64,000 nt of DNA, from positions 1-64,000 of the forward strand of contig NZ_QWLV01000004.1 of the NCBI RefSeq assembly GCF_003515075.1, written 5' to 3'. The DNA is from Sphingomonas gilva. GTDB lineage: Bacteria; Pseudomonadota; Alphaproteobacteria; Sphingomonadales; Sphingomonadaceae. The notes below the pieces were generated by a model, which had not been told where the DNA came from, made no database searches, and worked only from the letters and a program-made list of their open reading frames with translations. Of this stretch, positions 4,867 through 50,092 are shown in pieces; position 1 is the first letter of the stretch; each line of letters starts with the position of its first letter. The translations under genes were made by a program, and so were the position numbers.

Positions 4867-5787
4867 GTGACCGGGCCCTCGCTTTCGTTCCAGGACATGA
4901 TCCTGACGCTCCACCGCTACTGGGCGGACCGCGGCTGCCTGATCCTGCAGCCCTATGATATGGAGATGGGGGCGGGCACCTTCCATACCGCGACGACGCT
5001 GCGCGCGCTCGGCCCCGATCCGTGGAACGCCGCCTTCGTCCAGCCCTGCCGCCGGCCGACCGACGGCCGCTACGGCGAAAATCCCAACCGCCTCCAGCAT
5101 TATTACCAGTATCAGGTGATCCTGAAGCCCAGCCCGCCCGATCTCCAGGCGCTCTATCTCGGCAGCCTCGACGCGATCGGCATCGATCCGCTGAAGCACG
5201 ACATCCGCTTCGTCGAGGACGATTGGGAATCGCCCACGCTCGGCGCCTGGGGCCTCGGCTGGGAGGTCTGGTGCGACGGCATGGAGGTCACCCAGTTCAC
5301 CTATTTCCAGCAGATGGGCGGCTACGACTGCAAGCCCGTCTCGGGCGAGCTGACCTACGGCCTCGAACGCCTCGCCATGTACATCCAGGGCAAGGATTCG
5401 GTGTACGATCTGGCGTTCAACGCGCCAGTCTCCCTCTCCCCTTCAGGGGAGAGGGCCGGGGAGAGGGGCAGTTCGCCATCCTATACCTATGGCGACGTCT
5501 TCCTCGAAAACGAGCGCCAGATGAGCGCGTGGAACTTCGAGGTGGCGGACACCGATCGCCTGTTCGACGGCTTCCGCAAGGCGGCCGCCGAATGCGAGCT
5601 GTGCCTCGACAGGAAGCTGCCGATCCCCGCCTATGAGCAGGCGATCAAGGCCAGCCACATCTTCAACCTCCTGAACGCCCGCGGCGTCATCTCGGTCGCC
5701 GAACGCCAGGCCTATATCGGCCGCGTCCGCGATCTGGCGAAAGGCGCCTGCGCCGGCTGGATGGAGAAGAACGGATGGAGCGCGTGA
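4867..5787 (+). CDS. glyQ: Glycine--tRNA ligase alpha subunit, with an in-frame repeat insertion
   Basis: Alpha subunit of the alpha2beta2 glycyl-tRNA synthetase; carries the class II catalytic core. The 306-residue product contains [30 protein letters not shown] and [29 protein letters not shown] blocks characteristic of GlyQ. The GTG at 4867 gives the expected N-terminus. Oddity: between YDLAFNAP and [13 protein letters not shown], two blocks normally almost adjacent, lie about 18 extra residues ([18 protein letters not shown]). They are encoded by a copy of the CCCTCTCCCCTTCAGGGGAG palindrome. Without it the protein would have the usual length of about 288. It precedes glyS. Confidence 0.97.
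5432..5470. repeat. Palindromic repeat inserted in frame in glyQ
   Basis: CCCTCTCCCC (5432-5441) pairs perfectly with GGGGAGAGGG (5446-5455) around TTCA, followed by a partial second arm GGGGAGAGGGGCA to 5470. It is the same element edge as in glyS, the rpoB-rpoC spacer and the rplY-pth spacer. The insertion keeps the glyQ reading frame open and adds a Ser/Gly/Glu/Arg-rich loop between two conserved blocks of the enzyme. Confidence 0.9.
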
Positions 5788-6319
5788 GCGCCACCAAGAT
5801 CCGCCCCCGCGAAAGCGGGGGAGAGGGACCGCTCGCGAAGCGAGTGGTGGAGGGCGCGCGCGCCACCGCGACGGGAAGAAGGTTGGTTCACGCGAAGGCG
5901 CAAAGCCGCGAAGAATTTTTGTTTACGCGGAGGCGCGGAGACGCGGAGATCTGTCCCCGCCGCGCCAGCGGCCCTCATTTCCATGCGTCAGCCAAGGCTC
6001 CTGCATTTGAAGGGACAGGCAAGGTCGCGCCGCTGCACAACAGCTCCGCGTCTCCGCGCCTCCGCGTGAACCATCCCTTTTCTCCTCGCGCCTTCGCGCC
6101 TTCGCGCGAAGGATGTTTGTTCGCGCAGAGACGCGGAGACGCGGAGGTGCTGGTTTCCCGCGCGAAGCGCCCGCAAACCCTCACCGCTGCCGCGCGCCGG
6201 ACCCGTGAGGGGAAAGAGCCGCTGCGCGGCAGTGCCGCCTCTCTGCGTCTCCGCGCCTCCGCGCGAACCAGCCTTCTCCTTTCTCCTCGCGCCTTCGCGC
6301 CTTCGCGTGAACCCATCTT
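5788..6319. repeat. glyQ-glyS spacer packed with dispersed repeats
   Basis: This 532-bp spacer contains no credible gene. At 5804-5850 is a double hairpin (CCCCCGC/GCGGGGG around GAAA, then an imperfect CCGCTCGC/GCGAGTGG), related to the element inside glyS at 7226. From 5883 to 6318 two modules recur in both orientations: TTCACGCGAAGGCGCGAAG-type and CGCGGAGACGCGGAG-type. Forward copies lie near 5888-5955 and 6113-6150, inverted copies near 6045-6108 and 6238-6313. The inverted pairs could form long imperfect stems. glyQ and glyS are usually close together, so the spacer looks expanded by repeat insertion. Confidence 0.8.
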
Positions 6320-8917
6320 ATGACCGACTTCCTCCTCGAACTCCGCTCGGAGGAAATCCCCGCGCGCATGCAGGAAAAGGCGCGCGCGGACCTCGAACGG
6401 CTGTTCGCCGCCGAACTCGCCAAGTCCGGCCTCGCCGCGGCGGAAATCATCACCTACGCCACGCCGCGCCGCCTCGCGCTGATCGCCCGCGATTTGCCGG
6501 GCGAAACCGCAGCGGTCAGCGAGGAGATCAAGGGCCCGCGCGCCAACGCCCCCGAACAGGCGCTCGAAGGTTTCCTCCGCAAGACCGGCCTGACCCGCGA
6601 CCAGCTCACCGAGCGCGATGGCGTGCTCTACGCAATCACCGAAAAGCCCGGCCGCGCCGCCGCGGAGGTGCTGGCCGAGGCGATCCCGGCGATCGTCCGC
6701 GCCTTTCCCTGGCCCAAGTCGATGCGCTGGGGCGCGGCCTCCGCCTCCACCGAAAGCCTGCGCTGGGTCCGCCCGCTGCAGGGCATCGTCGCGCTGCTGG
6801 GCGAGGATGTCGTCCCCTGCGAGATCGTCGGCGTGCAAGGAGCATCGGCAGGAAAAGTGGGTACCGGTTTTCCGTCCGCCGATGCGACCCTCAAAAGCTC
6901 CGCGGCGACGGTCGGCCACCGCTTCCACCACCCGGGCGTCATCACCATCGGCAGCGCCCACGATTATGTCGAAAAGCTGCGCGCCTGCCACGTCGTCGTC
7001 GACGGCGCCGAACGCCGCCGCCTCATCGCCGATGGCGCGGCAAAGGCCGCCGCCGACGCCGGCCTCGAGCTGATCGAGGACGAAGGCCTGCTCTACGAGA
7101 ATGCCGGCCTGACGGAATGGCCCGTCCCCCTTCTCGGCCGCTTCGACGAGGCGTTCCTGACGGTCCCCCCCGAAGTCATCCAGCTCACCGCCCGCGTGAA
7201 CCAGAAATACTTCGTCCTGAAAAATCCTCCCCCGGCGTCGCCGGGGGAGGGGGACCACCCGCAGGGTGGTGGAGGGGGCTCGCCCCAGACGATCCGTCTC
7301 GCCAACGCCTTCATCTGCACCGCCAACATCGACGCGACCGACGGCGGCAAGGCGATCGTCGAAGGCAACCAGAAGGTCCTCGCCGCCCGCCTCTCGGACG
7401 CGCGCTTCTTCTGGGACCAGGACCTGAAGGTCCCGCTCGACGAGCAGGCGAAGAAGCTCGGCCAGATCGTCTTCCACGAAAAGCTGGGCACCGTCGCCGA
7501 CAAGGTCGACCGCGTGGCGAAGCTGGCGAGATGGCTGGTCGAAGAGGGGATCATAAAACCCTCTCCCCTTCAGGGGAGAGGGAGGAGCCGCGAAGCGGCG
7601 GAGGGAGAGGGGCAGGACGCTTCGCACTACGACCCGGCTTCGATGCTAGACACACTGCCCCTCTCCCCAGCCCTCTCCCCTGAAGGGGAGAGGGAGCATC
7701 TCGCCGCCCTCGCCGAACGCGCCGCGCGTCTCGCCAAGGCGGACCTCGTCACCGGCATGGTCGGCGAGTTCCCCGAGCTCCAGGGCGTCATGGGCGGCTA
7801 CTACGCCGCCGCGCAAGGCGAAGACCCCCAGGTCGCCGCCGCCATCCGCGATCACTACAAGCCCGTCGGCCAGGGCGACGAGGTGCCGACCGATCCGGTG
7901 ACGGTTGCTGTGTCGCTGGCAGATAAGTTGGATACGTTGTCCCAATTCTTCATCGTTGAGGAGTTTCCGACAGGTTCCAGGGACCCGTTTGCATTACGCC
8001 GTGCTGGATTGGGCGCGCTAGCTCTGCTCCAGGAAAACAACCTGCGGGTCTCGTTGCGCGCGGCTTTGTTCAAACCTCTGCTCGACCGGTCGATGCAGAT
8101 GTTCGCCGGCGATGAACTTCGAGCAGCGAGCGAAGTTCGTGAACTTGTGGCTCAGTTTTCGGATCCAGAAAGAGGTGAAAGTCTTTATCTCTCAATGATA
8201 TCAAATACTAAGGACCGTGCGCGAAGCGAGCGAGACACTTGGTTCGCAGACAAGATACTCGGTACAATCTACTATGTATCTGCGTTTCTCGCCGACCGCC
8301 TCAAGGTCCAGCAGCGCGAGGCGGGCGTCCGCCACGACCTGATCGATGCGGTGTTCGCCTTGGGCGGCGAGGACGATCTCGTCCGCCTGCTCGCCCGCGT
8401 CCATGCATTGCAGGCGTTCATGGCCACCGCCGACGGCGCCAACCTCCTCGCCGGTTACAAGCGCGCGGCGAACATCCTGAAGAAGGAGGGTTGGGAAACC
8501 CAGCCCTCTCCCCTTCAGGGGAGAGGGAGGAGCCGCGAAGCGGCGGAGGGAGAGGGGCAGGACGCTCGGCCCAATGACCCGGCTTCGATGTTGGACACAC
8601 TGCCCCTCTCCTCGGCCCACTCCCCTGAAGGGCAGAGGGGGAAGATTCCGCTGTCCTACACGCCCGAACCGGCGGAGAATGCCCTCATCGCCGCGCTCGA
8701 TTCGGCCGCGCCGCGCGCCGAGGCCGCAATCGGGGCGGAGGATTTCGAGGGGGCGATGGCGGCGCTGGCGACGCTCCGCGCCCCTATCGACGCGTTCTTT
8801 GACAGTGTGACCGTGAACGACCCCGATCCCGCCAGGCGCGAGGCCCGGCTGAACCTCCTCGCGCGGATGCGCGATGCGGTCCATTCGGTCGCCGATTTCT
8901 CGAAGATCGAGGGCTGA
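6320..8917 (+). CDS. glyS: Glycine--tRNA ligase beta subunit, with three in-frame repeat insertions
   Basis: Beta subunit of glycyl-tRNA synthetase, needed for tRNA binding. The 865-residue frame starts FLLELRSEEIPARM and contains the GlyS blocks ATPRRLAL, KSMRWG, LRWVRPLQ, ADKLDTL, RDPFALRRAGLG and DRLKVQQREAGVRHDLIDAVFALGGEDD. The E. coli protein has 689 residues. Much of the excess is repeat-derived peptide: about 20 residues at 7226-7285 and about 45 residues each at 7559-7694 and 8504-8639, the latter two nearly identical in sequence. All preserve frame. Residues about 525-657 are encoded by DNA of markedly lower GC with rare codons (ATA, GTA, AGA), suggesting a recombinant patch. Confidence 0.95.
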   Translation: MTDFLLELRSEEIPARMQEKARADLERLFAAELAKSGLAAAEIITYATPRRLALIARDLPGETAAVSEEIKGPRANAPEQALEGFLRKTGLTRDQLTERDGVLYAITEKPGRAAAEVLAEAIPAIVRAFPWPKSMRWGAASASTESLRWVRPLQGIVALLGEDVVPCEIVGVQGASAGKVGTGFPSADATLKSSAATVGHRFHHPGVITIGSAHDYVEKLRACHVVVDGAERRRLIADGAAKAAADAGLELIEDEGLLYENAGLTEWPVPLLGRFDEAFLTVPPEVIQLTARVNQKYFVLKNPPPASPGEGDHPQGGGGGSPQTIRLANAFICTANIDATDGGKAIVEGNQKVLAARLSDARFFWDQDLKVPLDEQAKKLGQIVFHEKLGTVADKVDRVAKLARWLVEEGIIKPSPLQGRGRSREAAEGEGQDASHYDPASMLDTLPLSPALSPEGEREHLAALAERAARLAKADLVTGMVGEFPELQGVMGGYYAAAQGEDPQVAAAIRDHYKPVGQGDEVPTDPVTVAVSLADKLDTLSQFFIVEEFPTGSRDPFALRRAGLGALALLQENNLRVSLRAALFKPLLDRSMQMFAGDELRAASEVRELVAQFSDPERGESLYLSMISNTKDRARSERDTWFADKILGTIYYVSAFLADRLKVQQREAGVRHDLIDAVFALGGEDDLVRLLARVHALQAFMATADGANLLAGYKRAANILKKEGWETQPSPLQGRGRSREAAEGEGQDARPNDPASMLDTLPLSSAHSPEGQRGKIPLSYTPEPAENALIAALDSAAPRAEAAIGAEDFEGAMAALATLRAPIDAFFDSVTVNDPDPARREARLNLLARMRDAVHSVADFSKIEG
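7226..7285. repeat. Double-hairpin repeat inserted in frame in glyS
   Basis: CCTCCCCCGGC (7226-7236) pairs perfectly with GCCGGGGGAGG (7240-7250). ACCACCC (7254-7260) pairs with GGGTGGT (7264-7270), followed by a G-rich tail. This is the same double-hairpin family as at 5804-5850. It encodes a Pro/Gly-rich peptide between YFVLKN and IRLANAFICTANI, two blocks that are normally separated by only a few residues in GlyS. Confidence 0.85.
7559..7694. repeat. 136-bp palindromic element, copy 1 inside glyS
   Basis: Both ends carry the 24-bp hairpin CCCTCTCCCC-4 nt-GGGGAGAGGG (7559-7582 and 7671-7694). Inside, GGGAGAGGGGCAG (from about 7602) pairs with CTGCCCCTCTCCC (from about 7655), and CCGCGAAGCGG makes a small hairpin. 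It is colinear over 136 bp, without indels, with copy 2 at 8504-8639, exactly 945 nt downstream. It is translated in frame as a 45-residue Ser/Gly/Glu/Arg-rich insert. Confidence 0.93.
8504..8639. repeat. 136-bp palindromic element, copy 2 inside glyS
   Basis: Same structure as copy 1, with about a dozen substitutions and no indels. The left half through GGGAGAGGGGCAGGACGC is identical. The right terminal hairpin is slightly decayed (GGGCAGAGGG instead of GGGGAGAGGG). It encodes [19 protein letters not shown], as does copy 1, and again keeps the glyS frame. Confidence 0.93.
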
Positions 8918-49994: not shown

Positions 49995-50092
49995 CCCTCT
50001 CCCCTTCAGGGGAGAGGGTTGGGAGAGGGGCCTGAAATCAGCGGTTCAGGCACTGCCCCTCTCCCCGGCCCTCTCCCCTGAAGGAGAGAGGG
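49995..50092. repeat. Palindromic element in the rpoB-rpoC spacer
   Basis: A 98-bp member of the same family as in glyS. The terminal hairpin CCCTCTCCCCTTCAGGGGAG lies at 49995 and the inverted terminal hairpin ends near 50092. Internal GGGAGAGGGGC and GCCCCTCTCCC arms pair around a CTGAA/TTCAG stem. It occupies nearly the whole spacer and would be transcribed as nested hairpins in the rpoBC mRNA. Confidence 0.85.

Follow-up and report, generated by a model that had tools for sequence, protein, structure and literature searches.

Two loops of the glycine--tRNA ligase beta subunit (GlyS) of Sphingomonas gilva each contain, in frame, one copy of a 136-nt palindromic repeat that is dispersed through the genome of this organism. 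Among related species the same two loops are filled by palindromes of several families, the family at a given loop differs even between close species, and the loops concerned fall in stretches of predicted disorder. These observations are most easily reconciled, with a probability that we put at about 0.8, with the view that translated, disordered and near-neutral loops of GlyS are landing pads on which palindromic repeats turn over rapidly. Loops of an essential protein thereby seem to have been rewritten repeatedly by selfish DNA. In this scheme a dispersed repeat, here termed family A, would settle in two loops at the GlyS surface (S1 and S3) with the reading frame intact, and the inserts would most likely be translated into disordered, near-neutral linkers. 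Members of several palindrome families would then occupy the two loops in turn, by replacement, nesting and collapse by deletion, while selection on an essential gene would maintain the reading frame through the inserts. The loops are probably hit through their tolerance of inserts, not through any attraction that they exert.

The glyS elements and their dispersal in the genome

The window analysed is a stretch of 64,000 nucleotides (contig NZ_QWLV01000004.1, positions 1 to 64,000), in which glyS occupies positions 6320..8917 of the forward strand and encodes 865 residues in an open frame containing several in-frame inserts; the identity of the gene is given by Pfam PF02092 (E 9.3e-168) and by NCBIfam glyS (652 bits versus a cut-off of 300). 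The two family A elements lie on the same strand at 7559..7694 (loop S1, residues 414-458) and 8504..8639 (loop S3, residues 729-773), each starting at codon position 1. An earlier note on this DNA had described them as a colinear, indel-free pair placed in frame 945 nt apart, and alignment confirms that description: the copies pair without gaps at 92% identity, with a spacing equal to 315 codons. Eleven nucleotide differences separate them, by which 7 of the 44 codons compared differ, with the residue altered in 6 of these 7. The 5' hairpin is perfect in both copies. The 3' hairpin is perfect in the S1 copy and has decayed by two mismatches in the S3 copy, so that the terminal hairpins attributed to both copies are present in full at S1 and at the 5' end of the S3 copy, and the attribution is slightly overstated for the 3' end of the latter. 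Folds predicted for the RNA are very stable, at -99 kcal/mol (z -9.3) for the S1 copy and -85 kcal/mol (z -5.3) for the S3 copy; none of 200 shuffles folded as stably. The core of the family is CCCTCTCCCCT-NN-AGGGGAGAGGG, a dimer of inverted hairpins. The window element starts CCCTCTCC and lacks the CGTC end tag by which CGTC-tagged REPs are defined.

Further elements were mapped in the window. A third palindromic insert in frame in GlyS (S0, NPPPASPGEGDHPQGGGGGSPQ) occupies approximately 7226..7279 of the forward strand, with boundaries set by eye; it is kin to family D, described below, and like peptides are found at several sites elsewhere in the genome. The neighboring gene glyQ, encoding the alpha subunit (4867..5787, forward strand; assigned from the open-frame list and Pfam/NCBIfam), contains a family A hairpin module of 14 residues at 5432..5472 on the same strand, read in a frame different from that of the GlyS copies. 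A 98-nt copy of the family A dimer, at 49995..50092, has no open frame of at least 150 residues across it and was taken as intergenic. The gap between glyQ and glyS (5872-6311) holds another repeat (CGCGCCTTCGCGCCTTCGCGTGAA and similar sequences) in several copies and both orientations. Within glyS itself, a near-palindrome, GGAAAAGTGGGTACCGGTTTTCC, at 6851-6873 encodes KVGTGFP in a stretch with pLDDT below 50, a place at which segments of at least 12 residues occur in 2 of 134 GlyS. A scan of the window against Rfam returned no family reaching its gathering score.

The genome of the strain (3.54 Mb in 17 contigs) was searched as a whole. A DNA search with the 136-mer returned at least 78 matches (40 of 63 first-look candidates having been scored), and the hairpin pattern, with three or fewer mismatches allowed, matched 65 times, against no match for the reversed pattern used as a control. 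Of these 65, the 53 modules that were read fall into 32 groups. Most groups pair a TTCA-loop hairpin with a TGAA-loop one, the two being inverted around a spacer as in BIMEs and REP dimers. In 10 of the 32 groups, representing 10 positions in 9 genes, the repeat is in frame and flanked on both sides by matches to the protein family: GlyS (twice), GlyQ, IleS, ValS, MurD (with a weak match on the N-terminal side, E 3e-4), MutL, MetH, HrpB and a dihydrolipoyl acyltransferase. The remaining groups sit between genes or are read in frames that have no family match. These genomic matches support the earlier suggestion of dispersed palindromic elements, comparable to those of Rickettsia, that interrupt an essential gene without loss of frame and are present more than once in a single synthetase. 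Four of the 9 genes encode synthetase subunits; rough estimates of this enrichment range from 1e-5 to 3e-7 and, resting on assumed gene numbers (24/3,300, or 60/3,300 to allow for length), are to be read as a hint only.

The search, with tabulation of the genic copies, also shows that these are read in differing frames. The frame encoding PSPLQGR is used in GlyS, ValS and the acyltransferase (E2), PLPFRGE-like peptides are encoded in IleS, MurD, HrpB and MutL, and LSPSGER is encoded in GlyQ. Moreover, among 16 dimers from this genome, 46 of 96 frames are open versus 51.8 in shuffles, which indicates that the repeat is not poor in stop codons. A single frame that evolved to be harmless when translated, as had been proposed for the element, is not supported by these two results. 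Nor do the S1 inserts favor it: three frames are used there by family A and three by family D, as separate arrivals would produce. Selection acting on the host gene is the most plausible reason why the reading frame is retained.

Palindrome families and their turnover at the GlyS loops

The genus sample comprised 61 genomes, of which 58 had a glyS match; four matches that were pieces at contig ends or cut (G007, G012, G043 and G054) were left out. In one of these, G054, glyS is divided over contigs C24 and C25 near S1 and a family B hairpin lies at C25:75-98, a case that shows how an assembly can be interrupted at a dispersed repeat in this gene. The window GlyS, 53 others from the same genus and 80 named GlyS loci (the best of 592 matches that were confirmed) make up a set of 134, which, after removal of 26 outgroup sequences and 3 duplicates, leaves 105 distinct sphingomonad GlyS. 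Inserts cluster at S1 (window residues ~413-463) and S3 (~726-775), with few at S0 (~302-320). In this sphingomonad set, which includes those drawn from the best 80 of 592, a segment of at least 20 residues fills S1 in 70 of 105 and S3 in 60 of 105 (9 of the latter consisting of a native-looking TGEEDP stretch alone); none of the 26 outgroup GlyS has such a segment at either site.

The confinement of palindromes to these loops is evident from a hairpin test that uses no motif (arm of at least 8, loop of 3-8). In the 105 GlyS there are 123 hairpins over the 11.9 kb of S1 (10.3 per kb) and 63 over the 11.0 kb of S3 (5.7 per kb), compared with 25 in 195 kb of core gene (0.13 per kb); at least one is present at S1 in 63 and at S3 in 40 of the 105. 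Under identical settings, the 26 outgroup GlyS yielded none at S1, which is short in these genes (789 nt in total), and none at S3; a single hairpin was found at S0 and 13 were found across the core. Shuffles of whole genes, with an arm of 9, gave 9 hairpins in 239 kb. The segment S2 (residues 581-653) was considered as a further palindrome site and is excluded by its 3 hairpins in 17.3 kb (0.17 per kb). It is a second hypervariable segment (window ~8060-8285), free of palindromes and often lower in G+C, that reaches at least 12 residues in 111 of 134 GlyS and differs in sequence, over ~10-100 residues, in most sphingomonad species among those listed.

With motifs picked after the insert sequences had been viewed, a family (A, B, C, D, E with a variant, H, F or G) could be given to 65 of the 70 segments at S1, and 46 segments at S3 were likewise classified. 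The C-rich hairpin families A, B, C and D may be distant kin of one another. Family E is of the CGTC type, H being a GC-rich variant of it; CCGTCA is present in family E inserts of other species, such as L145 and L079, and the family agrees with the CGTC REPs in those parts of Di Nocera et al. (2013, PMC3733652) that treat intragenic REPs. Families A to D are themselves dispersed in the genus: the family A element is present in 51 of 61 genomes, B in 41, C in 35 and D in 45, and reversed patterns of B, C and D matched nowhere in any of the 61.

Placed on a GlyS tree (609 core columns with the insert sites excluded; built by a quick search, with weak support for 28 of its 102 inner branches), the family at S1 requires 38 changes among the 65 assigned segments, where shuffles require 33-44 (mean 39.3) and 34% of 500 are as low; the two nested-looking inserts that the S1 label G takes in (L070 and L154) were counted here as their outer family A. 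Merging A to D gives 19 changes versus 18.5 in shuffles. At S3, 20 changes compare with a shuffled mean of 26.2, and none of 500 shuffles is as low. Family identity at S1 thus carries no phylogenetic signal; S3 retains some, which indicates slower turnover there. Among close species, the family at S1 is D in L155 and H in L158; in L172 the segment is short and resembles a collapsed D, as if a deletion between two GGGGAG stretches had shortened it. On the tree S1 switches between filled and unfilled at least 17 times, and well-supported branches force 12 or more of these switches. One founding insertion at S1 followed by a few losses, at which a helix turn shared by filled genes had hinted (see below), is thereby not supported.

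A related explanation is that the loops are targets that the repeats prefer, in the sense that they favor existing palindromes or C/G-rich loops and that an occupied loop draws the next element. Such a hotspot would account for the nested-looking inserts, L154 and L070, in the latter of which family A arms lie 145 nt apart with a further segment between them, and for the sharing of one family by S1 and S3 within a gene (14 of 38 versus 6.7 expected, 0.0014). This excess, however, could also reflect the family that is abundant in a genome, and may stem from local copying or from that abundance; furthermore, neither a target motif nor a target duplication was identified. The precise insertion with duplication of the target that the earlier note envisaged is not supported: by eye no duplication flanks the window glyS copies, and no close empty allele was found for comparison. 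We consider a preference of this kind possible, with the odds clearly against it, and continue to favor tolerant loops as landing pads.

Loop context, IleS and the means of movement

The loops concerned are poorly ordered by prediction. An AlphaFold2 model of the window GlyS (46 aligned sequences, mean pLDDT 85) falls below 50 at residues 176-183, 315-322, 417-436, 439-441, 732-734 and 736-773; these stretches are the sites S0, S1 and S3 together with a small insertion around residue 180. A solved GlyS beta chain (7yse) has short loops at the matching positions, residues 378-386 for S1 and 593-604 for S3. An extra helix turn, LAxxAE, adjoins S1 in 69 of 70 filled GlyS and in 3 of the 35 that have no long S1 segment (one of the 35, L085, being cut by a contig end); these three may be remnants. 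The sharing of this turn despite repeated changes between the filled and unfilled states is not predicted by a model of free landing.

The inserted segment is probably present in the GlyS protein. An open frame runs through the inserts in all 134 GlyS, a set that includes the best 80 of 592, a choice favoring intact genes. Removal of the segment before or during protein synthesis, by RNA processing or ribosomal by-passing, would leave it absent from the enzyme. By-passed sites typically carry very stable hairpins, as the window copies do, an indirect parallel; but removal would not need the frame that is kept throughout, and the helix turn adjoining the insert is a feature at the level of protein. 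We regard removal as most improbable.

A further explanation would invoke domestication: the loops or the hairpins of their mRNA might be useful, as a folding pause, in mRNA stability or as a linker, and any palindrome that landed would be kept and yet be replaceable. The families differ, yet the combination of a hairpin with a Pro/Gly/Ser-rich linker recurs at the GlyS and IleS loops, and the stability of the window RNA folds, the near-universal helix turn in filled genes and the share of synthetase subunits among family A genes could all be understood in these terms. On the other hand, one third of the sphingomonad GlyS do without a long S1 segment, a collapsed form exists (as in L172), and most codon differences between the window copies alter the residue. 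A useful role is unlikely, and near-neutral occupation of tolerant loops remains the preferred reading.

The same pattern may extend beyond GlyS. IleS was located in all 61 genus genomes (the matches listed for G005 and G022 having one in-range stop codon each), and one of its loops, at about residues 476-546 of the S. gilva protein, resembles GlyS S1 and S3: it holds 42 hairpins in 4,290 nt versus 42 in 86,838 nt elsewhere, distributed over 21 of the 30 IleS examined. Its inserts belong to families A (8) and B (6), to a further type, K, and to E and G, with 9 unassigned; the label E of the L224 and L226 inserts is an accident of the motif, both belonging to K. Near residues 276-336 of the same protein lies a segment resembling GlyS S2.

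The means by which copies move is a supposed step of the scheme. PF01797, the RAYT (Y1 transposase) family, has no match in the S. gilva genome, in a search whose control was positive in 5 of 14 named genomes; it is found in 4 of the 61 genus genomes and absent from 57, and copy-rich genomes such as G018 (family C) and G022 (family B) have none. RAYT was rejected as the mover in view of its absence from the genome of S. gilva and from those 57. A bolder and tentative proposal, which we judge doubtful, is that the GlyS and IleS loops are exchange sites where, once a loop has been opened, its palindrome is swapped for one of another family so frequently that the family present becomes random with respect to phylogeny. 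The swapping might be an active process, independent of RAYT and directed at existing palindromes, and the protein would have adapted to the loop through the helix turn. If this were so, core enzymes would carry a continually renewed, species-specific peptide derived from selfish DNA. With more than 100 species, the filling, refilling, nesting and collapse of a single loop in an essential enzyme can be followed as a natural series. Such a series allows tests of how selfish DNA turns into protein, in which loops it is tolerated, whether synthetases are involved by chance or for a reason, and what mobilizes REP-like elements in genomes that lack a RAYT gene.

Relation to known palindromic elements

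In-frame selfish palindromes are familiar mainly as static oddities of Rickettsia genes. The palindromic elements (RPEs) of that genus, as portrayed in the relevant portion of PMC10969869, are dispersed palindromes of ~100-150 bp found in frame in many unrelated genes, and the window family, which is likewise palindromic, dispersed, within this size range and in frame in unrelated protein genes, resembles them by description. It differs in its host, a sphingomonad of free-living type, and in the succession of several families at one loop of one gene. Bacterial MITEs, covered in part of the same source (PMC10969869), are short, non-autonomous inverted repeats that are at times fused in frame; the window element is similarly short, composed of inverted repeats and in frame, but differs in that no parent transposon was found for its family and no target duplication was seen by eye.

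The closest precedent is provided by intragenic REPs, which, in the sections of PMC3733652 devoted to them, occur in many bacteria, in S. alaskensis and E. litoralis also inside tRNA synthetases, and of which different ones occupy roughly one site in recB of two Xanthomonas. The CGTC- and GTAG-tagged REPs of those sections share with the window family the placement of in-frame dimers within genes, and differ from it in their tags, the window family having neither. The main text of PMC3733652 contains no mention of glyS, glycyl or GGGGAGAG, although its supplementary gene list may include GlyS, and in its parts covering intragenic REPs turnover over ~100 species is not described. The expectation that several palindromes in one sphingomonad synthetase would constitute a distinct phenomenon is not supported, given the intragenic REPs already published from synthetases in that paper. 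No description of several palindrome families that quickly follow one another at fixed loops of a single essential enzyme was found in the open-licence literature, to which the search was confined, subscription papers lying outside it. In-frame palindromes and intragenic REPs are already known; what appears to be new here is the turnover of multiple families at fixed loops.
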